From Verrucomicrobiota bacterium (lineage in GTDB: Bacteria > Verrucomicrobiota > Verrucomicrobiia > Chthoniobacterales > UBA10450): a DNA stretch of 64,000 nucleotides. Of this stretch, positions 7,040-63,485 are shown piece by piece. A model generated the notes under the pieces. That model made no database searches and was not told the DNA's origin. It was given only the letters and a program-made list of their open reading frames with translations. Position numbers and translations under genes: made by a program. The stretch is taken from contig QHNH01000027.1 of the NCBI GenBank assembly GCA_003218375.1, forward strand, positions 1 through 64,000. The letters are read 5' to 3'. Each line of letters opens with the position of its first letter. Positions within the stretch are counted from its first letter, which is position 1.

Positions 7040-7099
7040 AAGCTTGGCCTTTCCCGTGAGATGCGACAGGCCGCGCCTTTGGATTCAATTGTCCCCGTT

Positions 7100-7183
7100 C
7101 TTCTGTCGCCGCCGTCCCGCGGGCGGCGTGAAGGCGAGCGATCGCTTCACCCCACGCTTCGCATAGCGAAGCGGCTACAGAAG
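7100..7183. repeat. interspersed palindromic repeat, family 1 copy a
   Basis: An intergenic palindromic element between the permease and the STAND gene. It contains a GC-rich hairpin (GCCGTCCCGCGGGCGGC) and an ACGCTTCGCATAGCGAAGC hairpin, followed by GGCTACAGAAG. A closely similar element lies at 42245-42324 next to the DNA ligase gene. The pairing and position suggest a REP-like element that may form an RNA hairpin; function unknown. Confidence 0.7.
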
Positions 7184-7186
7184 GTG

Positions 7187-9817: not shown

Positions 9818-10695
9818 ACCGGCATCGGCGTTTTCTTGATCAACTCGTAGAGCGCCGGCACGAACGACCAGACATCCTGCATGACGAAGCGGACGTAACG
9901 GCGCTGGTCGCTCCAGTAACGGACGATGAGCTGGTCCGGCTTGGGGTCGATCGAATAGGTCTCGGGAAAGAGCGCGGGATCGAGGTTCACCCGCATCGCT
10001 TTGAAAAGCAGGCGCAGATTGTAATCGATCAGGCTGTAACCGATGAAGAGCGTCGGCCAGCGTTTGAAACGGTAGAGGAAAGTTTCCGGCACCGGGTGGA
10101 ACGGCGCCTTGTCGCTCATCCGCAGGACGAACTGGATGTAATCCTCATCCGTCAACACGGCCGAGTCCGGCACATCGATGTCGCCATGAAGTTTGCACAC
10201 GAACGGATTCAGCGGCGTGGGATCGTCCGTCGGATCTTCGGTGGGATTTTTCGCGGACGGGCTGTAGACGCAGAGCTGCGGATCTTTGCCGGCGGCGCGC
10301 AGGCTTTGCTCGAAGAGCTGATCGTAGTTCGTCGTCATGACGAGTGGGAAATCGAGCGCGGCCAGGGCGTGTACGACGGGTGACGCGATCTTGTTCGCGT
10401 GCACTTCCTCCTTGATCCGCTTCATCAGGCGATTGCGCGAAAGGGTGTCTTCGTAATGCCACGCCACGCGTTTGAGGTCGCCTACGTCCCAGCCCGGGAA
10501 TCGTTTCAGGTATTCGCTCTCATCGGCGAGCGTGACCGAAAGTGCGCGACCCAGCGGCGGCCGGCGCTCCTCCGGATAAGCGTCGAGATATTTCTGGTCC
10601 ACGCCGGCCGGCGGCCCGTAATGAACGCCGGCGCCGAGGAACAAAATGCATTGCCCTTTGCCCACGGCTTCAGCGATCGCGGCAAGATCGTCCAT
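9814..10695 (-). CDS. SIR2-like domain protein, probable NAD-consuming effector
   Basis: A 293-residue protein with the hallmarks of the SIR2-like family found in anti-phage systems. These are a nucleotide-binding LFLGAG (19-23), TTNYDQLFE (121-129), the catalytic-type KLHGD with His at 170, and LFIGYSLIDYNLRLL near 215-230. It lacks the zinc-binding cysteine module of protein-deacetylating sirtuins, which favours NAD hydrolysis over deacetylation (inference from family knowledge). It is the first gene of a two-gene unit; its TGA overlaps the ATG of the STAND/WD40 gene. The gene lies immediately downstream of an integron-cassette cluster on the same strand, so acquisition with accessory DNA is plausible. 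Confidence 0.85.
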   Translation of the reverse strand: MDDLAAIAEAVGKGQCILFLGAGVHYGPPAGVDQKYLDAYPEERRPPLGRALSVTLADESEYLKRFPGWDVGDLKRVAWHYEDTLSRNRLMKRIKEEVHANKIASPVVHALAALDFPLVMTTNYDQLFEQSLRAAGKDPQLCVYSPSAKNPTEDPTDDPTPLNPFVCKLHGDIDVPDSAVLTDEDYIQFVLRMSDKAPFHPVPETFLYRFKRWPTLFIGYSLIDYNLRLLFKAMRVNLDPALFPETYSIDPKPDQLIVRYWSDQRRYVRFVMQDVWSFVPALYELIKKTPMPV

Positions 10696-10823
10696 GGCTT
10701 AATCAGTGCGCGGGCGGTGTTGAACCCGAAGAGGGAACGCGATCACCCTGTTGTTTTAGCGCAGTCCCGCCGGCGATTTCCATCCAAATCCGCGCCCGGG
10801 GCGGGAACGCGAACCTGCAGCGC

Positions 10824-11267
10824 TTACTTCTCGGACGTAGTAATCGTGTAAGAGAAATCGGCGGCGGGAGTGATCGTGAACGTGGCTTTCGCCTCGGGAA
10901 CGCGGCGCTCGGCGGCGATCACGATATCCCAGCGCTTTCCCCGAAGCACAAATTTCTGCGACACCACCCGCCATCTCCCGTCAATTTCTTTGATGGGCAC
11001 CGTGCGTTCGATGATCGACTCCTGCCTGTCGTGATCCATCCGGATCCACTGAAGAAACGCGCGGCTGGAAAGCTCCTCCCAGCCGACGAGCTGGATGACG
11101 AGACGGAACGAGCCCTCCTGTTTGTCGCGCGTCCAGTAACCGCCTGAAGCTACCGTTTCAATCTGCGGCGGCAACGCTTCCGCCTTCGCCGCCAGCTGCG
11201 GGTCCTCCCGACTCTGAGCCAGTAAAGCGCACGGCAATAGGAGGAGAAACCAACCAGCGATTTTCAT
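10824..11267 (-). CDS. small exported protein carried as a cassette
   Basis: A 147-residue protein with a signal peptide (MKIAGWFLLLLPCALLAQS, likely cleaved after LAQ). The mature domain is beta-rich with no recognised motif. Its start codon lies only 4 bp beyond the R' end of the attC site at 11271-11394, the normal position for an integron-cassette gene. No attC follows its stop, so this is the last, attC-less cassette of the minus-strand array or the junction with ordinary chromosome. The 128 bp between it and the SIR2-like gene show no recognisable feature. Function unknown. Confidence 0.6.
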   Translation of the reverse strand: MKIAGWFLLLLPCALLAQSREDPQLAAKAEALPPQIETVASGGYWTRDKQEGSFRLVIQLVGWEELSSRAFLQWIRMDHDRQESIIERTVPIKEIDGRWRVVSQKFVLRGKRWDIVIAAERRVPEAKATFTITPAADFSYTITTSEK

Positions 11268-11270
11268 TAC

Positions 11271-11394
11271 ATCTAATGAGACGCAAGATCAGCGACGGCC
11301 ACCGGGAGCGAGCGCTGCCACGATTAACTGATAACTAATAACAATTATCTCGCGCATACGCGCGTCAGCCGTTCGCTGGATCGTGTGGTTAGGC
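11271..11394 (-). other. attC recombination site A (124 nt)
   Basis: Read on the minus strand it starts with R'' GCCTAAC (11394-11388) and ends with R' ATTAGAT (11277-11271). The inner arms are CAGCGAACGGC (L'') and GCCGTCGCTG (L'). They are complementary except for one extra A, the extrahelical base expected in attC hairpins. The stop codon of the upstream GIY-YIG gene overlaps R'', and the next gene starts just after R'. The first base of R' is A rather than the usual G. The central part shares a nearly identical 33-nt stretch with site G at 59613-59735. Confidence 0.85.
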
Positions 11395-11819
11395 CACGTT
11401 CGTTGCATTGCCGGTACCGTTGAGTAAGTGAACGCGGTCTCTGACGCCGGAGATGATGAACTCCTCCAGCGCTGGAACCAACGCTCTCGTCCGGGGATCG
11501 GAAAACGCGATGGCGGCGATGGCCTCGATGATGAACGGCTCGCCGGAAAGGTCGTTCATGCGGTAGATGTCGGTGGCGCGGTGCGGATTGAGGTGCGCCC
11601 AGAGCCGATTGCCGATGTTGCTGAGTGACGCCTTGCCGATGTAGGCGCCGAGCCGCTTCGGATCGTTCTCGTGATGGGCGCAGAGAATATAGACGCCCGG
11701 GCCATCCTTGCATGGCCACACCTGGTCGTCCCATGGGACGTTGGCGATGACTGAACACGATTCGGAGTTGGAGGCGTTCAGCGCTCGCGAAAGATGGGTT
11801 CGTATTTGTCGAGAGACAT
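11389..11819 (-). CDS. GIY-YIG-type nuclease domain protein, apparent one-base frameshift
   Basis: The reading frame ending at 11389 encodes GPGVYILCAH, then GAYIGKASLSNIGNRLWAHL and finally PALEEFIISGVRDR. These match the GIY, YIG, Arg and Glu elements of the GIY-YIG nuclease fold. The frame has no convincing start of its own. An ATG at 11819, 17 bp after the zinc-ribbon gene, encodes MSLDKYEPIFRER and then hits a stop at about 11780. Restoring one C there (CGCGAGCG-CTGAAC) joins it smoothly to LNASNSESCS of the GIY-YIG frame. The gene is therefore either recently broken or carries a sequencing error. Its TAA stop lies inside R'' of attC site A, marking it as a cassette gene. Confidence 0.6.
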
Positions 11820-11836
11820 GTCCGTGGAATGATGCG

Positions 11837-12061
11837 TTACGAAACCCACTGATGCCCACTGCCTCTGGAGCACTTGCCGATAGTGGGATGGGAGTTGGTG
11901 GACATGCCTGTGCCGCACTTGATGCACTTGTATTGTTTGCGGCTGCCGTCATCAATAACCCACTCGTGGCCGCCGCCTTCGGAGCAGCGGCCGATAGTCG
12001 GATGCGAAGATGCGGAAATACCGGTGCCGCATTTGATGCACTTGTATTTGGTGTTGGGCAT
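11837..12061 (-). CDS. tandem-repeat zinc-ribbon protein
   Basis: A 74-residue protein made of two near-identical units. Each has YKCIKCGTG, then S..SHPTIG, a further cysteine in GRCSEGGGH or GKCSRGSGH, and a closing WV. Each unit supplies CxxC plus later Cys and His ligands, as in a small zinc ribbon. The start ATG at 12061 lies 35 bp after R' of attC site B, and the GIY-YIG gene follows 17 bp later. The two therefore share one cassette and may act together, for example in nucleic-acid recognition and cutting (inference). A longer frame (12126 to 11389) through this region reads the attC and is not real at its 5' end. Confidence 0.6.
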   Translation of the reverse strand: MPNTKYKCIKCGTGISASSHPTIGRCSEGGGHEWVIDDGSRKQYKCIKCGTGMSTNSHPTIGKCSRGSGHQWVS

Positions 12062-12095
12062 TGTGGTGGTTGGGTTACGAGGCGCTCGTGTAGTG

Positions 12096-12216
12096 GCCTA
12101 ACGAGAACAAGATGAGCGACGGCCACCGAGAGCGCGCGTTGCTTTCATTTCATCCGTCATGATTCATCCGCCTTGATCCACTGCGGGTGGCCGTTCGCTC
12201 CATCGCATGGTTAGGC
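12096..12216 (-). other. attC recombination site B (121 nt)
   Basis: On the minus strand R'' is GCCTAAC (12216-12210) and R' is GTTAGGC (12102-12096). L'' GAGCGAACGGCC pairs with L' GGCCGTCGCTC apart from one unpaired A, the classic extrahelical base. It separates the exported-protein cassette (12224-12742) from the zinc-ribbon/GIY-YIG cassette. R' and R'' fit the RYYYAAC/GTTRRRY consensus perfectly. Confidence 0.9.
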
Positions 12217-12223
12217 CTTTGGG

Positions 12224-12742
12224 TCATTTCGGTGGAAGGGGTGAGGTACGAGTGACTGATCCGTCTGGCTTCTCATCGCCACCGAAGTTCATTTGCGGTC
12301 GTTTCTCATTGAAACCCGGAAGCCGAAAGAGCAAGCGATCGTCGGCGAGTTCCCCGCCACGCTTCCACTCACGATAATGCTCGTCGGCAAGCAAACAGGG
12401 CACACCGCGATATGTAATGAGATGCCATTTGCGGTCGTAGTACTTTCCCGGGCCGCGAAGTTCGATCGCGTCGGCATTTACAACCACTCGGCCGCGAAGC
12501 GGGTAATTAGGTACTTTCTGAGTGTGTGTCGTAGTGCGTCCGTTGATCGTCATCGTGATGGTGGAGGGGCCAACGTCGCTGTAAAACCAATATTTGTAGT
12601 GGTCGCCTTGGATCTTCAGAGCGATACCCATGTAGCCAGTCCACCGACCGGAGAGAACCCAAGCACCGTCAACGTCGGGACGCGCTGCAGCGAACGGGGC
12701 ACTGGCCAAGAAAATCAGCGCAAAGGTCAGCAGGAATCGCAT
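12224..12742 (-). CDS. small exported protein carried as a cassette
   Basis: A 172-residue protein beginning MRFLLTFALIFLASAPFAAA, a clear signal peptide. The ATG at 12742 lies 3 bp after R' of attC site C; an upstream in-frame ATG at 12775 would translate the attC itself and is rejected. The mature part looks like a compact beta-rich domain (GAWVLSGRWTGYMGIALKI, then YKYWFYSDVG and others). It contains a single Cys and no recognised catalytic motif. The gene is followed within 10 bp by R'' of site B. It is probably a periplasmic or secreted cassette protein of unknown role. Confidence 0.6.
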   Translation of the reverse strand: MRFLLTFALIFLASAPFAAARPDVDGAWVLSGRWTGYMGIALKIQGDHYKYWFYSDVGPSTITMTINGRTTTHTQKVPNYPLRGRVVVNADAIELRGPGKYYDRKWHLITYRGVPCLLADEHYREWKRGGELADDRLLFRLPGFNEKRPQMNFGGDEKPDGSVTRTSPLPPK

Positions 12743-12744
12743 AG

Positions 12745-12867
12745 GCCTAACGAGAATAAGATGAGCGACGGGCACCGAAGGCGCGCGCGGCTTGCAGGGG
12801 AAGGGTGGAAGCGAGAGCGAGCGTGGGCACAGAACGGGTGCCCGTTCGCTCCATCGCTTGGTTAGAT
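12745..12867 (-). other. attC recombination site C (123 nt)
   Basis: On the minus strand R'' is ATCTAAC (12867-12861) and R' is GTTAGGC (12751-12745). L'' GAGCGAACGGGC pairs with L' GCCCGTCGCTC with a single extra A. Length and sequence match sites A and B closely, as expected for an array built by one integrase lineage. Confidence 0.9.
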
Positions 12868-13004
12868 GGTGGACGTGGTTTCACGATGCGGGTGGGACAA
12901 GACTGCTCTGGGAAAGATGGGGCTTCCGCCTCATGGCAAATAGCGAATCAGAATCGGGAGGGAACGCGACCGCAAAATGCGCGCTGCGTGGGAGGATGGC
13001 GCAT

Positions 13005-13115
13005 CTAGTGAGGGACATAATGCGAGAGCCAGAAATGCCGCATGATCAACGACAAGAGGATCGCAATGACGAATACCGTCAGAGGCCAAATCGGAGAGCT
13101 GAGTCCTCGCCTCAT
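13005..13115 (-). CDS. 36-residue single-helix membrane protein in a cassette
   Basis: A very short gene starting at 13115, 3 bp after the R' box at 13119-13125. The product starts MRRGLSSPIWPLTVFVIA and continues ILLSLIMRHFWL. This gives a positively charged N terminus and one membrane helix of about 20 residues. The remaining 137 bp of this cassette up to site C contains nothing else recognisable. The start-codon position directly behind R' and the coherent membrane-helix profile support it. Such tiny membrane proteins in cassettes can be toxins or stress peptides, but that is only a possibility. Confidence 0.45.
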   Translation of the reverse strand: MRRGLSSPIWPLTVFVIAILLSLIMRHFWLSHYVPH

Positions 13116-13118
13116 ACC

Positions 13119-13125
13119 ATCTAAC
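13119..13125 (-). other. attC right half (R' box), head of the minus-strand array
   Basis: Reading the minus strand, CATCTAATTCTCGTTAGAT ends in a GTTAGAT R' box. It closely resembles the L'-R' end of site C (CATCTTATTCTCGTTAGGC), but no matching R''/L'' half is visible upstream; an AT-rich hairpin (TTCGCCTTTAAAGACGAA) lies there instead. The site is therefore truncated and marks the upstream end of the array. The same sequence around this box recurs at the head of the other array near 56277. Confidence 0.6.
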
Positions 13126-13216
13126 GAGAATTAGATGAAAGTTCGTCTTTAAAGGCGAATATTTTTTCGTCTATCACGGTGCTACCTGCTTCGAGATTCG
13201 TTGTGGTAGCAGATCG

Positions 13217-13924
13217 TTATTCCTCGATGGCGCCGCCGAGGATTCGGAGATGTTTTCGGAATGTGTAGGTGGGATCGGCGGCGCGTTTGGCGAGATACTC
13301 GGAGAAGCCTAATTGGGAGCGCAGCTTTTCGCCGGAGAGAATGGCGTCGGCCTGAGCGCGTTCGCGTTGCCAAATAGTTCTTGCGGTTTCGAGGAGCTTT
13401 TCAATCGAGGCGCCGCCGATAAAAACGCAGCCGTCGTCATCGGCGAAAACGAGATCGGTGTTTTGGACTTCGAAATCGCCGAAGCGCGCGGAAGTCAAGG
13501 CATCGGCATCGCGCGGGTCGAGGCGTTGCGGACCGGATAGGCATGAGCCGTAGCTCCAAATCGGAAAGCCGATCTGGCGCAGCTCCGCCGTATCGCGATG
13601 CGTTCCCCAAACAACGATCGCGACCAGGCCAGCCGCTCGTGCTTCGAGCGCGGTCAGATCGCCGATGCAGCCTTCGTCGCGCCGGCCAGCATTATCGATC
13701 ACGAGAACGTCGCCGGCTTCCGCGGTTTCCATCGCTTCGAGAAAGACATCGACGCTCCCGAAATGTTTCGCGGGAAGGACACGGCCCGCGGCGCGGGCGC
13801 CGGGAATGATCGGCGCGATCCCGGAAGGGGCAACGCGAACCGGAATTTTCAACCGCAAGGCAGCATCAAATACGAGCGGAGTGGAGAGCTCTGCGAACTT
13901 TTCCGCCAGCGCCGCGTTCTTCAC
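13217..13924 (-). CDS. RraA-like / HMG aldolase family protein
   Basis: A 235-residue cytoplasmic protein of the RraA-like family. This family includes 4-hydroxy-4-methyl-2-oxoglutarate/oxaloacetate aldolases and the RNase E inhibitor RraA. Diagnostic parts are GDVLVIDNAG followed by CIGDLTALEARAAGLVAIVV, which supply the metal- and substrate-binding Gly/Asp-rich loops, and DLVFADDDGCVFI near residue 165. It is the first ordinary chromosomal gene outside the minus-strand cassette array and is transcribed toward it. Whether it acts as aldolase or otherwise cannot be decided from sequence. Confidence 0.8.
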   Translation of the reverse strand: MKNAALAEKFAELSTPLVFDAALRLKIPVRVAPSGIAPIIPGARAAGRVLPAKHFGSVDVFLEAMETAEAGDVLVIDNAGRRDEGCIGDLTALEARAAGLVAIVVWGTHRDTAELRQIGFPIWSYGSCLSGPQRLDPRDADALTSARFGDFEVQNTDLVFADDDGCVFIGGASIEKLLETARTIWQRERAQADAILSGEKLRSQLGFSEYLAKRAADPTYTFRKHLRILGGAIEE

Positions 13925-14002
13925 GAATCAACTTTGCTCGAAAGATCGGACGCAGCCAGTCCGAACGTTTTCTGAATCCGCCCGGCGTTTCCGCCGCATC
14001 AG

Positions 14003-14848
14003 ATGAGTATTATGACTAACGACCTGGCGATTGAGTCCGCGGCCGCGCTCGGACCGCCCGCTCAGCGTGGGAAATGGCGAGAAGCGATCGCGCGGCGCCA
14101 GTTGATCGCGTTCTTTGTCCTGGCATTTGTCTTCTCGTGGTATCCGTGGATCATCGCGATCTGGCGCGGGCGAACTTCCGGGCCGAATCCGCTCGGGCCG
14201 TTGATCGCGGCGCTCATCGTCACTGGATTGGTGGAAGGCCGCGCAGGCTTGCGAACGTTGCTCGGCCGGATGGTGCGGGCGCGCATCGGGGTGCGATGGT
14301 ATGCGATCGTCTTCCTGTTGCCGGTCGCGCTTTGCGCGATCGCGATGGCGATCATGGCGGCATTTGGCACGGGAGCGGTATTACCAACAGCGGTAGCCTG
14401 GCGGGAGCTGCCGGATCGATTTGTGTTCGTCTTTCTCTTCATCGGGCTCGGCGAAGAACCGGGCTGGCGCGGTTTCGCGCTGCCGCGTTTGCAGCAGAAG
14501 CACACGCCATTATTCGCCAGCCTGATCCTCGCGCCGATCTGGGCGCTCTGGCATCTGCCGTTGCTGGGAAACGAATTTCCCTTGCCGGTGATCCCGGCGT
14601 TTCTCATCAGCCTGCTCGGCGGAACCCTGATCCAGACCTGGCTCTTCAACCGCACCAAAGGCAGCGTTTTCGCCCAGATGCTTTTTCACGCGACGGTGAA
14701 CACCGTTGGCGCGGGCCTCATCTTCCCGCTCTTCAAGGGATCGACGTTCGTGGTCTTCTGGTACGTTTACGCGGCGCTGTGGATGATCGCGGGTGCGTTC
14801 ACCGTGTTTCTTTCGGGCGAGGCTGAAGTTCGTTCACCATCGCGGTGA
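14003..14848 (+). CDS. CPBP-family intramembrane glutamic endopeptidase
   Basis: A 281-residue polytopic membrane protein of the CPBP (Abi/CAAX-protease-like) family. The conserved motif EEPGWRGFALPRL (the EExxxR element) lies near residue 150, followed by APIWALWHLPL carrying the second conserved His. About seven or eight hydrophobic helices are visible. Family members cleave or modify membrane proteins and some give bacteriocin self-immunity; the substrate here is unknown. Its 3' end overlaps the convergent TPR-protein gene by about 50 bp. An alternative ATG lies three codons downstream. Confidence 0.85.
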   Translation: MSIMTNDLAIESAAALGPPAQRGKWREAIARRQLIAFFVLAFVFSWYPWIIAIWRGRTSGPNPLGPLIAALIVTGLVEGRAGLRTLLGRMVRARIGVRWYAIVFLLPVALCAIAMAIMAAFGTGAVLPTAVAWRELPDRFVFVFLFIGLGEEPGWRGFALPRLQQKHTPLFASLILAPIWALWHLPLLGNEFPLPVIPAFLISLLGGTLIQTWLFNRTKGSVFAQMLFHATVNTVGAGLIFPLFKGSTFVVFWYVYAALWMIAGAFTVFLSGEAEVRSPSR

Positions 14849-55951: not shown

Positions 55952-56286
55952 CCGTCGCGAGCGAACACTCGCACTGCCTGTGACGCGGTCGCGGCCATCA
56001 AGTGCCGCGAGCGCTTCCTACTTTCGATTTTCGATTTTTGATCGCCTTCTACTTTCCACTTCCTACTTTCGGTTTCGGACCTCCGACTTCCGATCGCCGA
56101 CCTCTGAACTCTACCTCGACGTCCGGATCGCGTCCCAGACTCGGTCCAGCAGTTTCGGATTGCGCGGCGCGGCCTGGGGGGATAGTTTCATTTACCTCCC
56201 CATGCTGACACCCGCCCCGTCGAACCTCAAGCTGATTAGACCCCAAAAATGCGCCTTTAAAGGCCCAATTATTGGGCCTAATTCTC
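55952..56286. other. gene-free stretch leading into the plus-strand cassette array
   Basis: About 335 bp without a supported gene. A CTTTCGATTTTCGATTTTTG and CCTACTTTCG-type simple repeat (about 56020-56110) is followed by unstructured DNA. Then come two hairpins next to the array head: GCCTTTAAAGGC and GGCCCAATTATTGGGCC. Confidence 0.6.
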
Positions 56287-56293
56287 GTTAGAT
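56287..56293 (+). other. attC right half (R' box), head of the plus-strand array
   Basis: GTTAGAT preceded by CTAATTCTC. The stretch 56276-56297 is almost the same as the reverse strand at the head of the other array (around 13119-13125, 21 nt shared). No matching R''/L'' is visible upstream, so this is a truncated attC or specialised array boundary. Confidence 0.55.
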
Positions 56294-56680
56294 GGTATCG
56301 TCGCTTCCACGGCTCGCGCGATCAGTCCTGATCCTGTTCGCAGTTTGCTTCCTTGGAGCTTGCGCCGTTCACGTCTTCGATCTGTGGCGGCACGGTTGGT
56401 TGCCTTACCACTTGCGCCGTTGGCGCTCAACGCCTACTGGACCGCCCTCACGTTTCTCGATGCGCTCGCTGCGGTCCTGTTGCTTTGGCAGCCGCGCATT
56501 GGGCTCGCCTTGGCTATCCTCATCATCACATCTGACGTGACGCTCAATCTCTTCGCCCAGTTCTACCTTCGCTTGCATCTCCGGTCAGATGCTTTGTCGT
56601 TGCAGTTTCTCTTTTGTGTCGCTGTCCTTGCGGCCACGTTTTATGCTCGACGCACGGGAGCAGCCACGCCAACCATCTAA
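56292..56680 (+). pseudogene. cassette gene for a small membrane protein, one-base deletion
   Basis: Frame 1 starts at 56292, directly after R'. It reads MVSSLPRLARSVLILFAVCF, then HVFDLWRHGWLPYH. After CACTT the protein continues in the next frame as APLALNAYWTALTFLDALAA and later DVTLNLFAQFYLRL, ending at TAA 56680 inside R'' of the next attC. Inserting one C restores HFAPL and a single polytopic membrane protein of about 129 residues. Recent decay or sequence error are both possible. Confidence 0.5.
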
Positions 56681-56686
56681 CCATGC

Positions 56687-56694
56687 GATCCAGC
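56687..56694 (+). repeat. 8-bp target-site duplication, left copy
   Basis: GATCCAGC immediately left of the IS end; the identical GATCCAGC occurs at 58696-58703. The eight-base length is typical for IS1595-family elements. Confidence 0.93.
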
Positions 56695-56764
56695 GGCAAT
56701 AATATCTTTGACTGACCGTAAGGTCAGTGGGAATCTTGGCCGTGACAGGGCGGACAATCACGGC

Positions 56765-56920
56765 TTAATCGCGCGGCTTAGTTGCCACCGTGCGCGGTTG
56801 TGGTGGCGTTTTTATCATCCGCCTAACGAGCGATTCGAACCGCTTGGCGGCGGCAGTGCCGGAACGGGCGTCCTTCGCAAGCCGTTCAAGCGTTTCCTCG
56901 CGCGTTTCGTGTTTCTTCAT
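56765..56920 (-). CDS. 51-residue passenger peptide of the IS
   Basis: A short basic protein starting MKKHETREETLERLAKDARS and continuing GTAAAKRFESLVRRMIK, mostly helical. The ATG lies 15 bp beyond the stop of the 242-residue gene on the same strand, and the reading frame is well inside the IS. Codon use and coherent amphipathic pattern suggest it is real; no function is known. Confidence 0.45.
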   Translation of the reverse strand: MKKHETREETLERLAKDARSGTAAAKRFESLVRRMIKTPPQPRTVATKPRD

Positions 56921-56935
56921 GGTTCAGTTCACCAT

Positions 56936-57664
56936 CTAGTGCGTGCTGTTGTGAAACGAAGTCTGTTTGAAGTCTTGTACCGCCGGATCGTACAGCGCGC
57001 AAAACTTCATGGTCTGCTCCTCCTTCGGCAATTCGTGACTGTAGTAATGAACCACGCCGTAAACATAAACAAAAAGTTTCTTGTCCACGATTTTTGCAAT
57101 GGCATCAGCAGTCAAGGGTGGCCCGCCCAACGCAGTCATTTTGATTGCCAGTCCGGCAGGAATCATTGTTTTAACCGGCGGGCTGTCGCGGGAAAGCGGC
57201 GGCGGGTCACTGGTCAACTTCTCTGTCCGCGTAATCAACGCGCTTTCCTGTTCAACGTCGATTGCATCCGACTTGCCTAAGTTTTGTATGATCATTGTTC
57301 CACTAAGTTGTTGTCCAGGAACGAGGCTGCCTAATGACACGCCAGTTAAAAATAAGGATGGACGATTAGCCTGCGGAGCATCCTTCTTCCACTCCCTGTC
57401 CTGCAACCAGCAGCAACCCGTTAACACGGCGAACAGAATGGCCGTGCCGCTTGTCCAAATACATAGTGACCTATGACCAAGAGCACCGAACATGCCCGCA
57501 ATAATCGTGGCTATGAGGCAAAGAGAACCCGCAATGTACACAATCGTTTCCATCCAGCTCCTTACGTGATGACTGGTCGCGAGTTGGCTACCGGGCTTAC
57601 TATTTTTTTTGTCATTGGAGTCGGAATTGGCGCGTTTGCTTTCGCGATACTTTCTTCTTTTCAC
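56936..57664 (-). CDS. membrane protein of unknown function carried by the IS
   Basis: A 242-residue protein that starts 27 bp after the transposase stop. The first 37 residues are very basic (MKRRKYRESKRANS and on). Two membrane helices follow (TIVYIAGSLCLIATIIAGMF and LCIWTSGTAILFAVLTGCCW). A 120-residue soluble domain contains GTMIIQNLGKSDAIDVEQ, a pattern seen in beta-sandwich domains. An internal ATG near the first helix is an alternative start. As a passenger gene it is transcribed with the transposase. Confidence 0.6.
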   Translation of the reverse strand: MKRRKYRESKRANSDSNDKKNSKPGSQLATSHHVRSWMETIVYIAGSLCLIATIIAGMFGALGHRSLCIWTSGTAILFAVLTGCCWLQDREWKKDAPQANRPSLFLTGVSLGSLVPGQQLSGTMIIQNLGKSDAIDVEQESALITRTEKLTSDPPPLSRDSPPVKTMIPAGLAIKMTALGGPPLTADAIAKIVDKKLFVYVYGVVHYYSHELPKEEQTMKFCALYDPAVQDFKQTSFHNSTH

Positions 57665-57691
57665 TAGATGCTACGCTGTCTGCCACGTCTC

Positions 57692-58648
57692 TTACGCCGG
57701 ACAAGGGCCATCACCGCCCTCTGCCGCAATGAGCTTCGCATATCGCAATCCTTTGCCGACAACGCCACTGAGCGCCTTAATAAAGCGCCCTTGGTCGTTG
57801 TCTTTGCGCTCGTTGAATCGGAAAGCTTGCTCATCGCAATACCGGAACAAATGAAACGGTTCGACATTCACATATGTCCCCTTGAGGGAGCGTTTCAAAA
57901 GCGACCAGAAGTTTTCCAGCCCGTTCGTATGGACTTGGCCCTTGGCGTAGCACTCCAAATGGTCAATCACTTGGCGGTCGTAATCCTTTTCAAGATCGTC
58001 ATAGGACATGAGCGCATCCGTGTTCACGGTCGAGCCTGCTTCGACGTGCTGGCGAACGTTGCCGCAAAGCTCGGGTCTGCGGGTATTCGGAACCACCTTC
58101 AACACGATACGCGAGAGAGTTTCGCCCTCTGTGCGTTGCAGGATGCCTTGCACGGGGGTTTTCTTAATGCCAGCGTCTCCAACACCCGTGCGGCGATTCT
58201 TGTGCATGTAGCGAGCCTTTGCGCCGATGTAGGTCTCATCAGCTTCACACGTCCCGCTCATTTTGCCGCCGAAACCTTGCTGCATGGCGAGCCGGATACG
58301 TTGCAGCATGAACCATGCGGTTTTCTGAGTCACGCCAAGCGCGCGATGCAGTTCGTAAGAGCTAACGCCGTTTTTGCAGTTCGACGCGAGCCACATTGCC
58401 GGAAGCCACTTATCCAAACCAATCGGGGAATCTTCAAAGATTGTTCCAACCTTGGCCGAAAACTTTTGCTTCGGGTGAGGCGTGCGGCATTTCCAGACCT
58501 TCGCGTTTTCAAGGAACGTCACCTTGTCGGAATTGCAGCGCGGGCAACGCACTCCTTTAGGCCAGCGAATCTGTTTAAAGAACTCAAAAGCGTTCTCGGG
58601 ATTGCTGAAATACGTTACCGCTTCCAAGAGGGTTTCCGGTGCTTGCAT
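57692..58648 (-). CDS. IS1595-family transposase
   Basis: A 318-residue DDE-type transposase. An N-terminal zinc ribbon (KGVRCPRCNSDKV, then WKCRTPHPKQKFS) is followed by TIFEDSPIGLDKWLPAMWL. The catalytic core includes GTCEADETYIGAKA (first Asp), VNTDALMSYD (second Asp) and VHTNGLENFWSLLKRSLKGTY (terminal Asn-Glu motif). The order CxxC, DE, D, NxE is diagnostic for the IS1595/ISXO2 group. Its start lies 47 bp inside the right end of the element. Confidence 0.95.
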   Translation of the reverse strand: MQAPETLLEAVTYFSNPENAFEFFKQIRWPKGVRCPRCNSDKVTFLENAKVWKCRTPHPKQKFSAKVGTIFEDSPIGLDKWLPAMWLASNCKNGVSSYELHRALGVTQKTAWFMLQRIRLAMQQGFGGKMSGTCEADETYIGAKARYMHKNRRTGVGDAGIKKTPVQGILQRTEGETLSRIVLKVVPNTRRPELCGNVRQHVEAGSTVNTDALMSYDDLEKDYDRQVIDHLECYAKGQVHTNGLENFWSLLKRSLKGTYVNVEPFHLFRYCDEQAFRFNERKDNDQGRFIKALSGVVGKGLRYAKLIAAEGGDGPCPA

Positions 58649-58695
58649 ACGGGGAGAATACCAGCATGAAACGGTCTGTCAAGTATATTATTGCC

Positions 58696-58703
58696 GATCC
58701 AGC
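58696..58703 (+). repeat. 8-bp target-site duplication, right copy
   Basis: GATCCAGC right after the IS end, identical to 56687-56694; it continues as GAACGGGC, the native attC L'' sequence. Confidence 0.93.
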
Positions 58704-58801
58704 GAACGGGCTGGCAGCTTTGATTCCTCACTTTCCATGAAATTCCACCCTCAACCCGCAGCGATGCGCCCTCTCGCCAGCCGTCGCTGATCTTGTTGAT
58801 T

Positions 58802-58999
58802 CACTCGCGCGACTCGTTCAACCTGCGGTCTTAAAGTCTATGTCACGGCTTGCCAGTCCGTTCCATTGTAGCCCTCTGCCCCACTACCCGAAAGTCCGGT
58901 CTCGTTAGACGCAGATGACCACGTTCGCTATAAGGCGCAGTCTCGTTTGATGTTCCGGAGTAACTGTGCGCGACGGACAATAGAGTAAAATGGAGCCGC
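58802..58999. other. 198-bp stretch between site F and the DUF3592 gene
   Basis: Without a supported gene. It contains one further R'-like box GTTAGAC (58904-58910, inside CCGGTCTCGTTAGACGC) with no visible partner half, suggesting the remnant of another attC. Confidence 0.4.
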
Positions 59000-59494
59000 A
59001 TGAGTCACTTCTTTGTTCGCCTTCCGAATGAGCCCTCGCCTGCGGATGGCGGCGCACTCAAGAGACGGCTCGCGCAGGCACTGGTAGCGACGCCAGGGAT
59101 CATCCTGTTGCTCCTCGCTCTGCACGGGGTTGTCGCGGATTATCGCCACATGCAAGATGTGAGTCGGCGCGCGGAGGCGCGAACGGCGCTAGCAGAGGCC
59201 ACGATTGTCGAGACGCACGGCCTGGTCTCCGGGAAAGGTCTTCGTATCGCGGAAGGAGCCGGAACGTTCAGCTTCACCACTGTTTCCGGCCAGGAGGTGC
59301 GGGTTCCATATCGAGGCTTCAGCGGCAGCCTTGGCACGAAGCTTCCCGTCCGCTACGATCCTCGCAACCCTGAGAACTGCGCCCTGGGAGACAACCGGTG
59401 GGGGTTTTCCGACCTTCTCGGTAACGCGCCTTTTTTCCTCATGGGCCTATGTTTTCTGTTCTTGGCAATGAAGCTGGGACGCCGGAATCCGTGA
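59000..59494 (+). CDS. DUF3592-type membrane protein carried as a cassette
   Basis: A 164-residue protein with two membrane helices (LVATPGIILLLLALHGVVA and LLGNAPFFLMGLCFLFLAMK). The extracytoplasmic domain between them contains FTTVSGQEVRVPY and LPVRYDPRNPENCAL, the DUF3592 signature (VxYxPxNP). The family's function is unknown. It is followed by attC site G and belongs to the plus-strand cassette array. Confidence 0.75.
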   Translation: MSHFFVRLPNEPSPADGGALKRRLAQALVATPGIILLLLALHGVVADYRHMQDVSRRAEARTALAEATIVETHGLVSGKGLRIAEGAGTFSFTTVSGQEVRVPYRGFSGSLGTKLPVRYDPRNPENCALGDNRWGFSDLLGNAPFFLMGLCFLFLAMKLGRRNP

Positions 59495-59612
59495 GCACCG
59501 GATCTGGGCAGTTGGTGGATTCGGGATCACAAGTTGTTTCGACGTGGTGGCAGTTTTTTCGCTCTCGGCATCGCAAGCATTCGATGTAGTATGCAACTCG
59601 TGCAGCTCCAAC

Positions 59613-59735
59613 GTCTAACCAGGCGATGCAGCGAACCGCTGGCGCGCGCGTGCGCGAGTTAATTGTTATTAGTTACCAGTTAATCGTGGCAGAGTTTGCT
59701 GTCACCAGCCGTGGCTGAGATTGAGCTCGTTAGGC
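59613..59735 (+). other. attC recombination site G (123 nt)
   Basis: R'' is GTCTAAC (59613-59619) and R' is GTTAGGC (59729-59735). Inner arms are CAGCGAACCGCTGG and CCAGCCGTGGCTG. The centre holds a TTAATTGTTATTAGTTACCA stretch continuing AGTTAATCGTGGCAG, which is almost identical to site A (11271-11394) on the other strand. The acetyltransferase gene starts 8 bp after R'. Confidence 0.92.
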
Positions 59736-59743
59736 GCTTACGC

Positions 59744-60301
59744 ATGCAGCTTTTCCGTCCCGGTCCCGAACACCTTGCGAGCTACGTGGCCGCGCTCGAG
59801 CGCGGGTGGTCTGCCGACAACGAGCGCGGGGTCGAAGCCACGCGCGAAGAGCTCTCCCGCATTCATGCCGATGCAGCGGCGTTTCTCGCCAGCATGGAAG
59901 ACCGCGAAGCTAAGGGTCCTCCCGTCACTCTCCCAGACGGTTCGGCGGCCAAGCGCCTCCCGGGCGTCAGGCGCTGGCTCTGGGACGGGGAGTTCTGCGG
60001 AAGCATCGGGTTGCGGTGGCAGCCGGGGACTACGGCGCTTCCGCCCCATTGTCTGGGGCATATCGGCTACGCGGTCGTGCCGTGGAAGCAGCGCCTCGGG
60101 TATGCCAAGTCAGCGCTACGTCTCATACTTCCTGAAGCCAGGGCAATCGGCCTTTCGTACGTGGAGATCACCACTGATCCGGCCAACATCGCTTCCCAGC
60201 GCGTCATCGAAGCGAATGGAGGCATCCTGGTCGAGCACTTCATCAAGCCGCAGCAGTTCGGCTGCAAGCCCGGCCTGCGCTTTCGCATCACGTTGACATG
60301 A
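59744..60301 (+). CDS. GNAT-family N-acetyltransferase carried as a cassette
   Basis: A 185-residue acetyltransferase. GHIGYAVVPWKQRLGYAKSA is the acetyl-CoA-binding region (motif A, V/I-x-x-x-x-R/Q-x-x-G), and TDPANIASQRVIEANGGIL is motif B. The start at 59744 (MQLFRPGPEHLASYV) is 8 bp after R' of site G; one 16 codons earlier would translate the attC. GNAT genes are among the commonest cassette genes; the substrate could be an antibiotic, peptide or protein N terminus. Confidence 0.8.
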   Translation: MQLFRPGPEHLASYVAALERGWSADNERGVEATREELSRIHADAAAFLASMEDREAKGPPVTLPDGSAAKRLPGVRRWLWDGEFCGSIGLRWQPGTTALPPHCLGHIGYAVVPWKQRLGYAKSALRLILPEARAIGLSYVEITTDPANIASQRVIEANGGILVEHFIKPQQFGCKPGLRFRITLT

Positions 60302-60371
60302 CAGCGACGAGCCCCTCCATTCCATCCAAGACCTCAAATAACTCCCACACTCTATTTCTTGGATAACGGTC

Positions 60372-60770
60372 ATGAATCAGCTCCTGCGGTTCTCTGGTTC
60401 GGTTAAGCGTGATCCAGCCATCGAGGCCTGGATGAAGGCGCACCCAGGGGAATTGGGTGTGATCGCGCGGCACTGGTTTGAGGTTATGCGCAAGTGTGGA
60501 GACGATGTGCGAGAACTGTTGCATGATGGCCATCCGACGGCGTGTATAGCTGACGCCGCATTCGGGTACGTCAACGCCTTCAAAGCTCATGTGAATGTCG
60601 GGTTCTTTCGCGGCGCCGAAATTGCCGATCCGGAGGGTCTGTTGGAAGGCACAGGCAAGTTTATGCGTCACGTGAAGCTCCGACCCGGCCGTGACTTCAA
60701 TGCTAAAGCTCTAACGAAGCTAATCGAGACTGCATACACCGACATGAAAGAACGCGTGCGAGCGGAATGA
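60372..60770 (+). CDS. DUF1801-type small protein in a cassette
   Basis: A 132-residue protein with CIADAAFGYVNAFKAHVNVG and GFFRGAEIADPEGLLEGTGK, then RHVKLRPGRD. These match the DUF1801/YdhG-like family of unknown function. It follows the GNAT gene by 70 bp with no attC between them, so both may share one cassette. Confidence 0.72.
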   Translation: MNQLLRFSGSVKRDPAIEAWMKAHPGELGVIARHWFEVMRKCGDDVRELLHDGHPTACIADAAFGYVNAFKAHVNVGFFRGAEIADPEGLLEGTGKFMRHVKLRPGRDFNAKALTKLIETAYTDMKERVRAE

Positions 60771-60809
60771 CAACGATCGCGTTCCTGTTACCCGTCGAAT
60801 GAAAGAAAG

Positions 60810-60816
60810 GCCTAAC
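60810..60816 (+). other. attC left half (R'' box)
   Basis: GCCTAAC followed by CAGGCGATG, as at the start of site G. No L' or R' follows; the next gene begins 15 bp later. It is a truncated attC, presumably left by deletion between cassettes. Confidence 0.6.
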
Positions 60817-60830
60817 CAGGCGATGCCCCC

Positions 60831-61541
60831 ATGACTTTCACCGAACATCCGCGTTTGCTCGCGCGCGTCGCGGGTGCGTTCTACCTGATCATCACGGCGT
60901 GCGCCTTGTTTGCCTACTTGTATGTTCGCGATCAGGTGATCGTCACTGACAACATGGCTCAGACCGCAGCTAACTTCCAGGCGCAGGAGAAGCTCTATCG
61001 ATTGGGCTTTGCTGCCGCCGTCATCGTCGTCATCTGCAATCTGCCCCTCGGATTTATCCTGTTCGAGCTTCTCAAGGTGGTGAATCCGCGCCTCGCCAAG
61101 CTCGCCCTGGTCTTCATCACCGCATCAGCCACGATCGAGGCCGTCAATCTCTTCAACTATATCGAGCCTTTGTTCACATTCAGCCTTCCCGAATACGCCA
61201 CCGCCTTCGACGCGGCCGGACGACAGGCTCTTGCGCGCGGTCCGATAAGGATGTTTGGTTATGCCTTCAGCGTGAGCCTGACGTTCTTTGGCGTGTTCTG
61301 CTCGCTGATTGGATTTCTCATCTTTCGGTCGAAGTTTCTTCCGGCAATCATAGGCGTGCTGATGATGGTTGCCGGCGTGACTTACTGGATCAACAGCTTC
61401 CGGCTTTTCCTCGCATTGCCGATCCCTTACATTCCGTGGGTCACGCTCGTCGCCGAATTGTCACTGGCCCTTTGGCTCCTTGTTGTCGGCGTCAACGAGG
61501 CGAAATGGCGGGCGCAGGCCGGCCAGGGCGGCACTAAGTGA
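60831..61541 (+). CDS. DUF4386-type membrane protein in a cassette
   Basis: A 236-residue protein with about six helices. The opening RLLARVAGAFYLIITACALF and AKLALVFITASATIEAVNLF are characteristic of DUF4386. The TGA is followed 2 bp later by an R'' box ATCTAAC (61543-61549). DUF4386 proteins are often found in cassettes and stress islands; function unknown. Confidence 0.78.
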   Translation: MTFTEHPRLLARVAGAFYLIITACALFAYLYVRDQVIVTDNMAQTAANFQAQEKLYRLGFAAAVIVVICNLPLGFILFELLKVVNPRLAKLALVFITASATIEAVNLFNYIEPLFTFSLPEYATAFDAAGRQALARGPIRMFGYAFSVSLTFFGVFCSLIGFLIFRSKFLPAIIGVLMMVAGVTYWINSFRLFLALPIPYIPWVTLVAELSLALWLLVVGVNEAKWRAQAGQGGTK

Positions 61542-61542
61542 C

Positions 61543-61549
61543 ATCTAAC
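61543..61549 (+). other. attC left half (R'' box), end of the plus-strand array
   Basis: ATCTAAC followed by CAATCGAGTTG. No L'/R' half follows; ordinary chromosome resumes with the membrane protein at 61599. Confidence 0.55.
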
Positions 61550-61564
61550 CAATCGAGTTGACCG

Positions 61565-61594
61565 TTTGGAGTGCGATCCTAGGATCACTCCAAA
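61565..61594. repeat. imperfect palindrome before the polytopic membrane protein
   Basis: Arms TTTGGAGT and ACTCCAAA flank GATCCTAGGATC, a perfect 12-bp palindrome, with a 2-base bulge. It ends 4 bp before the ATG at 61599 and may affect its translation or terminate the array transcript. Confidence 0.5.
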
Positions 61595-61598
61595 CCCG

Positions 61599-63485
61599 AT
61601 GAGTAACCTTCTGCGCATTTCTTTCGCGGCGTTTTTGCTGGCCGGGGTGGGAGCATTCCTGGCGCCGCGGCGAATTTTGCGCGAGACGTGGCGGAGAATC
61701 AGAGCGCTCGGCCGGTGGCTAGATGAAGAGACGCCGCGCCGTCGCAGGATGGTCTTCATCCTGATCTGGATCGTCGCGCTTATCCCGATGCTGCACCTGA
61801 CTTACCTCGTGCGGCATTATGCGGTCGAGGTGCCGACGCTCGATGACTGGGAAATGGCGCCGCTGATCGTCGATGCACATAGCGGCCATTTGAAATGGAC
61901 CGACATCTTCGCGCAGCAGCAAGAGGCCCGCACGGTTCTCCCGAAACTGATCTTCATTCTCTCGGCCGCGGGTGGCCACTGGGATGTGCGCGACCAGATG
62001 ATGCTATCGGTGAGTTGCTGCTGGCTTACGGTCGCGGGCATTTTCGTTTTGTTGCGGCGCGCGGGCCTCGGTCCCGGCGCGGTCGCCATTTGTTTCTGGC
62101 TGGCGGCGCTCACGATTTTTACGCCGGCGAAATATGAGATCTGGATTTTCGCCTCCGGGTTCCCTTCCTTTTTGCCGGCGCTTTTCCTGGTGGCCGGGCT
62201 TGTGGTTATGGGTGCTAATATTTCGACGGCTTGGAAATTCGTTTTGAGTGGACTGTTCGCTACCGCGAGCAGTTTCAGTTTGCCGCACGGATTGCTCGCA
62301 TGGGGCCTCACCTTCCCGGTGCTCCTCCTCATTCGCCAGGTTCCGCGGTGGCGATCATGGCTTATCGCCTGGATCGGTCTCGGCGCGATCTGCATGGCCA
62401 CGTATTTTTGGGGCTATCAAAAGCCGGCTTACCTGCCCGAGTTCGCTCCGGCCGCTCCGCTGGGTGAATACGTTCGCTTCATGCTGGAATTCCTCGGCGG
62501 CGGTCTCGCCTACGCGTGGAAAGATCGCCCGGCTTTGTCGGCTGCGCTCTTCGGCGCGGTGCAATGCGCGCTCTTTTTCGCGGCGCTCGTTTACTGGGCG
62601 CGGCGAATTCGCGACCGGGCGTTTATCGCGAAGACCGCACCGTGGTTCGCGCTCGGATTGTATTCCTTCGGGAGCGCTGTTCTGGCGGCGCTCGGTCGAG
62701 TGGGCTATGGCGCGTCCTACGCGCTGGCGTCGCGCTACGTGACTTTTTCGATTTACTTTACGATCGCCGTCATCGCGCTGGTGGCGATTATCGTTCGGGA
62801 AATTCTTAGCCGACACGCTCCGGTCCCTGCGCGCGGGTGGACTTACGCGATCTGTGCCGTGCTCGTTATCGGCTACCTGGTTCCCTACAAAGTGTGCGCG
62901 TACAACACCTCGTTTTTTCTGCGCGCTCTCTCGGCCAAGGACAGGCTCGCTCGCGCGGCGGTCCTTCTTAGCCCCGCGATCGACACCTCGGAGATCATCA
63001 AGAAAACAGCGTATCCCAACGACGCCAGGCCGGTGATTGAAGGCGCCGACGCGCTAGATCGGTTGAAACTGCTGCGGCCGCCGCTGGTCCGCGCCAATCG
63101 TCTTGACGCGATTCCGCATGAAGTTGCCGATGGCATTCATGCGTCGGGCGCGTGCGAAGCAATTACGGCAAGCGACGGGCAACTCGTGCGGGCGAACGGC
63201 TGGGCAGTCCTGAACGCGAAGGGGCGCCCGCCCGACAGCGTGGCGGTAGCATACCAAACGGCGCCCGACCAGGAATGGATTCTCTGCGCGATTTCCGATT
63301 CGTTTGAAATGCGGCCTGAAATCGTGAAACGCTTCAAGAGCATGGACCAAGTCTGGTCCGGTTGGAGCGCGACCTTTCCGCGAAGCGCGTTTCCTGCAAA
63401 CGCGAAGCTGTCGTTCTGGGCGCTGGATGCGGACGAGCCGAAATTGTATCGGCTGAAAGACGAGGCCGTCTTGACGCCTCGTTAG
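61599..63485 (+). CDS. polytopic membrane protein of unknown function
   Basis: A 628-residue inner-membrane protein with about ten to twelve helices, including FILIWIVALIPMLHLTYLV and WLIAWIGLGAICMATYFWGY. The first periplasmic loop carries an acidic pair (PTLDDWEMAPL), a feature seen in membrane glycosyltransferases of the GT-C type. No DxD or mannosyltransferase signature is certain. The start at 61599 is preferred over one 11 codons upstream because of the palindrome there. Confidence 0.7.
   Translation: MSNLLRISFAAFLLAGVGAFLAPRRILRETWRRIRALGRWLDEETPRRRRMVFILIWIVALIPMLHLTYLVRHYAVEVPTLDDWEMAPLIVDAHSGHLKWTDIFAQQQEARTVLPKLIFILSAAGGHWDVRDQMMLSVSCCWLTVAGIFVLLRRAGLGPGAVAICFWLAALTIFTPAKYEIWIFASGFPSFLPALFLVAGLVVMGANISTAWKFVLSGLFATASSFSLPHGLLAWGLTFPVLLLIRQVPRWRSWLIAWIGLGAICMATYFWGYQKPAYLPEFAPAAPLGEYVRFMLEFLGGGLAYAWKDRPALSAALFGAVQCALFFAALVYWARRIRDRAFIAKTAPWFALGLYSFGSAVLAALGRVGYGASYALASRYVTFSIYFTIAVIALVAIIVREILSRHAPVPARGWTYAICAVLVIGYLVPYKVCAYNTSFFLRALSAKDRLARAAVLLSPAIDTSEIIKKTAYPNDARPVIEGADALDRLKLLRPPLVRANRLDAIPHEVADGIHASGACEAITASDGQLVRANGWAVLNAKGRPPDSVAVAYQTAPDQEWILCAISDSFEMRPEIVKRFKSMDQVWSGWSATFPRSAFPANAKLSFWALDADEPKLYRLKDEAVLTPR

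Follow-up and report, generated by a model that had tools for sequence, protein, structure and literature searches.

A probable decayed chromosomal integron headed by a palindromic attI in a Verrucomicrobiota bacterium

A block of inserted DNA in a 64,000-nt window of contig QHNH01000027.1, from a Verrucomicrobiota bacterium assigned through its relatives to Chthoniobacterales (Spartobacteria), is interpreted here as a decayed chromosomal integron. The block (55958-61550, plus strand) lies between two chromosomal genes and comprises an integrase remnant, an attI site, cassettes and an insertion sequence. We further think that most of the attI-headed arrays in the GTDB family of this genome are integrons that lost intI, possibly served in trans by an integrase encoded elsewhere; to this reading as a whole we assign a probability of roughly 0.85. 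An earlier note, made from the letters of the window, was right to describe a cassette array, but under-read its left edge.

The whole analysis is computational, and recombination between attI and attC is a prediction from sequence. Coordinates without a prefix refer to the window, C-numbers to contigs of the genome under study (G000), which is a draft assembly of 52 contigs and 97.8% complete, G-numbers to genomes and L-numbers to loci. A palindromic attI-type site at the start of a cassette array is called a head. Two covariance models were used, namely R1 for attC, built from 13 attC sites of the genome itself (the one at 59613-59735 among them), and R2 for attI, whose training set included the window site at 56233-56294; both derive partly from the genome under study, and their E-values are rough. 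The Rfam search returned a single tRNA only.

At the left edge of the block, the site at 56233-56294 (plus strand; 68.4 bits with R2, in whose training set it stands) consists of an imperfect palindrome followed by the core CCTAATTCTC-GTTAGAT, with an R box at 56287-56293. Divergent from it, on the minus strand at 56122-56190, a frame reads the first 23 codons of intI (MKLSPQAAPRNPKLLDRVWDAIR) and is then truncated, with a stop soon after. The stretch 56123-56294, which covers attI and the start of intI, aligns with C32:2200-2366 over 172 bp at 94.8% identity. That locus displays the canonical divergent layout, with three attC sites, an attI-type site and a divergent intI frame coding for 44 aa of the IntI N-terminus, approximately 70-75% identical to the intact IntI of relatives, before it is broken off. 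This identity, together with the 23-codon frame, indicates that the box at 56287, previously listed as part of a truncated attC, is indeed present but represents the R box of an attI that adjoins a divergent intI. An origin of the head as the right end of an attC was ruled out, as it lacks an R'' box and adjoins intact intI in relatives. On sequence grounds, the left edge is taken to be an intact attI and not a broken attC.

The designation "CALIN-like" given earlier is hence accurate in an operational sense, as this is a cassette array with no integron-integrase nearby, but it does not describe a bare attC cluster: an attI with its R box stands at the 5' edge and attC sites close the cassettes, as in a complete integron, while the intI beside attI is down to 23 codons. 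The presence of its own attI and intI start speaks for a decayed integron rather than a bare cluster. By default, IntegronFinder 2 requires at least two attC sites per cluster to call a CALIN (PMC9024848); counted with the genome-built model R1, the array holds one intact site and one split by an insertion sequence.

The intact attC (59613-59735, 123 nt, plus strand) scored 106.8 bits (E 1.1e-28) with R1, in agreement with the complete site proposed before. R1 found 42 matches genome-wide, and the motif YCTAACC-nGCGATG ... TCGCTSATCTT ... CTCGTTAGRY is present on many unlinked contigs, which shows that the site is not a chance match, despite its membership in the R1 training set. The attC sites of the block are genuine.

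The split attC was also recovered as proposed. Its 5' part (R'' and L'', 56675-56694, plus strand) ends in the 8-bp target duplication GATCCAGC, found at 56687-56694 and again at 58696-58703; between the two copies lies an insertion sequence of 2,001 bp (56695-58695, minus strand), the ends of which are matching terminal repeats (GGCAATAATAT) in inverted orientation. Its transposase gene (57692-58648) matches PF12762 (E 1.4e-37) and also PF12760, and the DDE_Tnp_IS1595 transposase, terminal repeats and duplication place the element in the IS1595 family. A passenger ORF inside it (56936-57664, minus strand, 242 aa) has no Pfam match. Once joined, the flanks of the element align with other attC sites, and the part of the site 3' of it scores 60.8 bits by itself with R1 (58696-58797). 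The 3' part extends over 58696-58910 (plus strand), with an inserted repeat of approximately 72 bp (58796-58875); beyond this, the box at 58904-58910, also reported earlier, is present and is probably the R' end of the split site. The repeat occurs in five places, being near full length at C2:9672-9743, C28:173328-173407 and C42:191498-191570, and partial at C40:20777-20808, in addition to the window copy. At several of these it sits within the right arm of an attC, 5' of R'. It may mark a subtype of attC that carries an extension, or be a small mobile insert.

Regarding the cassette genes, that of cassette 1 (56292-56680, plus strand) opens with an ATG frame at 56292 and continues in a frame at 56345-56680 in the ORF list, so that it is apparently frameshifted; it has no Pfam match, and its stop falls inside the R'' box of the split attC. 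Cassette 2 (59000-59494) encodes a DUF3592-like membrane protein, just below the Pfam cut-off (23.3 versus 25.3 bits). The remaining genes, all on the plus strand as well, exceeded their cut-offs and, like the former, carry the family names assigned in the earlier note: a GNAT acetyltransferase in cassette 3 (59744-60301; PF13302, E 2.5e-10), a DUF1801 protein (60372-60770; PF08818, E 9.6e-11) and a DUF4386 membrane protein (60831-61541; PF14329, E 6.1e-42). In G022 (L187), the gene of a GNAT homologue, 63% identical, stands directly 3' of an attC that belongs to another array, which would fit cassette movement. After the DUF1801 gene, the attC is reduced to R'' and 10 nt (60810-60826, plus strand) and joined to the next gene; 14 nt of it (TAACCAGGCGATGC) are identical to the intact attC, and these two copies are the only ones in the window, in support of the truncated site suggested for this position. 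After the DUF4386 gene, at the junction of array and chromosome, there is R'' alone (ATCTAACC, 61543-61550, plus strand), as expected from the box noted at 61543. As the R' crossover side is gone from both truncated sites, the last genes would be fixed in place.

The array is oriented opposite to the first array of the window, as had been stated, the attC sites of the latter lying on the minus strand at 11258-12881. That array (11258-13177, minus strand) has three attC sites and is headed by a palindromic attI (13118-13177), beside which no intI remnant was found. A segment of 7.7 kb (7089-14798) that includes it is missing in G020.

We compared the locus with that of three relatives, L137 (Spartobacteria MAG palsa_1414), L138 (a Chthoniobacterales MAG) and L139 (palsa_1379). 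In all of them, the gene to the right of the block (61566-63485) has an orthologue and the trpC region upstream is retained, with approximately 69-82% DNA identity, and all of them lack the block. In L137, homology stops at 55957, where the PKD gene ends, and restarts near 61551, directly 3' of the last R'' remnant. A syntenic region without attC sites in relatives had been put forward as evidence against a cassette array; what was found is that the flanks are syntenic, that no attC is present at the three loci, and that the entire block is absent, a pattern in favor of an insertion. This block includes the intI fragment and attI as well as the cassette genes. In G026 (L144 3400-4660), a different insert lies upstream of the orthologous membrane gene; by eye, it seems to contain a trypsin-like protease gene, and no array was seen.

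Sites like the left edge are not restricted to this locus. Most cassette arrays of the genome start with a relative of it, that is, an imperfect palindrome followed by TCTAATTCTC-GTTAGRY, with approximately 19 heads in total. A strict 44-nt pattern of the head gave no match because the arms vary, and a DNA search followed by the covariance model succeeded. With R2, heads were found in 31 of the 32 family genomes with a completeness of 90% or more and, under stricter filters, in 4 of 85 genomes elsewhere in the order. For 62 heads from seven genomes, a same-strand attC lies within 1.5 kb downstream in 44 cases and upstream in two, and none has one on the opposite strand. No head was seen at the attC clusters C42:186201 and C28:172000. 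Downstream of the heads at C42:70606, C10:172521 and C27:95725 no attC was detected; these could be vacant sites or be followed by a gene without attC. The heads at L037 2802, L210 6584 and L213 7261 lie inside longer arrays, with attC on both sides, as if cassettes or whole integrons had been joined end to end.

Integrases are distributed more sparsely. IntI was detected in 40 of 83 family genomes at E 1e-40 or better, 33 of them above the curated cut-off, and the profile search detected none above the cut-off in the genome under study; since this is a draft of 52 contigs, it may have left an integrase unassembled. The tyrosine recombinases encoded on C3 and C40 are not regarded as IntI, as they reach 40-83 bits in separate pieces against a cut-off of 265, leave the middle part of the model unmatched, and have similar counterparts in all 14 control genomes. 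In G038, the completeness of which is given as 100%, R2 yields 16 matches before removal of palindrome duplicates, and the only recombinases are Xer-like, below 80 bits; G026 likewise has no intact IntI. Where intI is intact, the palindromic site occurs in two layouts. In the first, it lies on the other strand, approximately 130 nt upstream of the gene (e.g., G022, G037, G042); in the second, seen in G007, G020, G036, G080 and G008, it shares the strand of intI and follows the match to this gene by 50-70 nt. In loci L121, L122, L127, L129 and L135, which have the second layout, intI is upstream of the array and co-directional with it. This adjacency to intact intI indicates, on sequence grounds, that the head is attI. 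Among relatives, all three states are found, namely intact intI, fragments and none.

Such an excess of heads over integrases raises the alternative that heads are dispersed, permanent docking sites that never had an intI of their own, where arrays form and dissolve under one integrase acting in trans. The approximately 19 heads of a genome without intact intI would agree with this, as would the 18 R2 matches of G022 against two intact intI genes, and the lack of any intI remnant upstream of the other heads of the studied genome. Yet intI fragments adjoin heads at C32, C21 and G022:C4, and no vacant head was found at an orthologous place. Moreover, at C2:45162 (L035) there are an attI, three attC sites and no intI, whereas G020:C24 (L182), with a common upstream flank, has an intact co-directional intI between that flank and an attI of another arm type, followed by eight attC sites, so that either intI was lost at C2:45162 or the locus was taken twice. 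We therefore regard permanent docking sites as unlikely. The related idea of a dispersed integron, in which an integrase acting in trans would read palindromic attI sites through their paired or folded arms and up to some 20 sites per genome would recruit cassettes to many loci, in place of a single platform for each integrase, seems to us similarly doubtful. Returning to the decay of integrons, the absence of remnants at the other heads of the genome means that integrase loss is documented at two loci only, and the remaining heads may possibly have been seeded in trans.

The palindrome arms differ strongly between heads but stay complementary, for example GACGAA/TTCGTC, GACGCCT/AGGCGTC, ATCCCGCC/GCGGGAT and GACCC/GGGCC. 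Left arms pair with their own right arms at a mean of -10.6 kcal/mol versus -7.4 for random pairing (z -9), a value reached in none of 20,000 permutations; with one representative per arm cluster, z was -6.3 (26 clusters) and -5.1 (19 clusters), again with 0 of 20,000 each. Relatedness among heads is not fully removed by these permutations. In an RNAalifold analysis of 21 sequences, six of eight pairs were changed on both sides. The attI of this family is an imperfect palindrome with covarying arms, and the most likely reason for the symmetry is either a pair of boxes bound by the integrase or a site that folds. The palindrome could instead act on transcription, as a terminator or insulator, with no part in recombination and merely neighboring the attI core, given that a terminator with inverted GTTRRRY motifs has been reported at the edge of a phage CALIN (PMC9892861). 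We consider this improbable: no T run follows the palindrome, box-like motifs (TTAG/CTAA) stand at its ends and immediately adjoin the R box, and it is kept in both layouts, between intI and the array in one and upstream of intI on the other strand in the other.

The weakest alternative, for which we see very little chance, is a bare CALIN, formed when an integrase in trans inserted cassettes off target, at a genomic site other than attI (attG). This would suit a genome without integrase, and attG insertion has been described as a way for arrays to arise outside integrons (cited in PMC12901181); it is disfavored for 55958-61550, as the cassettes are joined to an attI and an intI 5' remnant shared with C32, both within the inserted block, and not to a chance GTT or any site unlike attI.

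Altogether, we propose the following history for the decayed integron. An integron with divergent intI, attI and a plus-strand cassette array would have sat between the two chromosomal genes, and IntI would have built the array by inserting cassettes into the R box of attI (56287), at G|TT. Later, in an order that we infer, intI would have been shortened to 23 codons, one cassette gene frameshifted, one attC split by the IS1595 element, and two attC sites truncated to their R'' ends, locking the last genes in place. The family as a whole carries many arrays, each with its own palindromic attI, in numbers far above those of its integrases.

The origin of CALINs, by loss of intI or by off-target insertion, is an open question (PMC8618304). 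An attI covariance model sorts arrays begun at attI from others, making this question directly testable across dozens of genomes, and the array set gives a way to study how such arrays persist once their integrase is gone. Outside class 1 integrons, attI sites are poorly described and IntegronFinder performs no attI search (PMC9024848); the title of Hansson et al. 1997, as cited in PMC12901181, calls attI non-palindromic, and a covarying palindrome would extend what is known of integrase substrates. No match for a palindromic or multi-copy attI was found in the open-licence papers searched. Each ingredient is known; what we did not find described in these papers is an attI palindrome with covarying arms, or a genome with many orphan arrays that are each headed by attI.

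With regard to known systems, the block resembles a CALIN as defined by IntegronFinder (PMC9024848) in being an attC array without intI and with few attC sites, and differs in having its own attI and intI 5' remnant, and attC sites of which one is intact, one split by the element and two truncated. With sedentary chromosomal integrons of the Vibrio type it shares the divergent intI start, the attI and cassettes in one orientation, but its intI is 23 codons, its array is short, and its attI is an imperfect palindrome. As in the second layout described above, Treponema chromosomal integrons (PMC3607928) have intI transcribed towards attI, and in T. phagedenis intI was lost and attC sites were left; the family studied here differs in its many attI-headed arrays per genome and in having both layouts. 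Cassettes at attG sites (Loot et al. 2024, via PMC12901181) likewise lie outside a canonical integron, but attG sites diverge from classical att sites, while the heads form one recognizable family, also found beside intact intI. Finally, the CALIN of the Shewanella prophage M16-3 (PMC9892861) is also an integrase-less array that starts with a copy of attI; it is a single case beside a complete integron, whereas the arrays described here occur genome- and family-wide, with a covarying palindrome.
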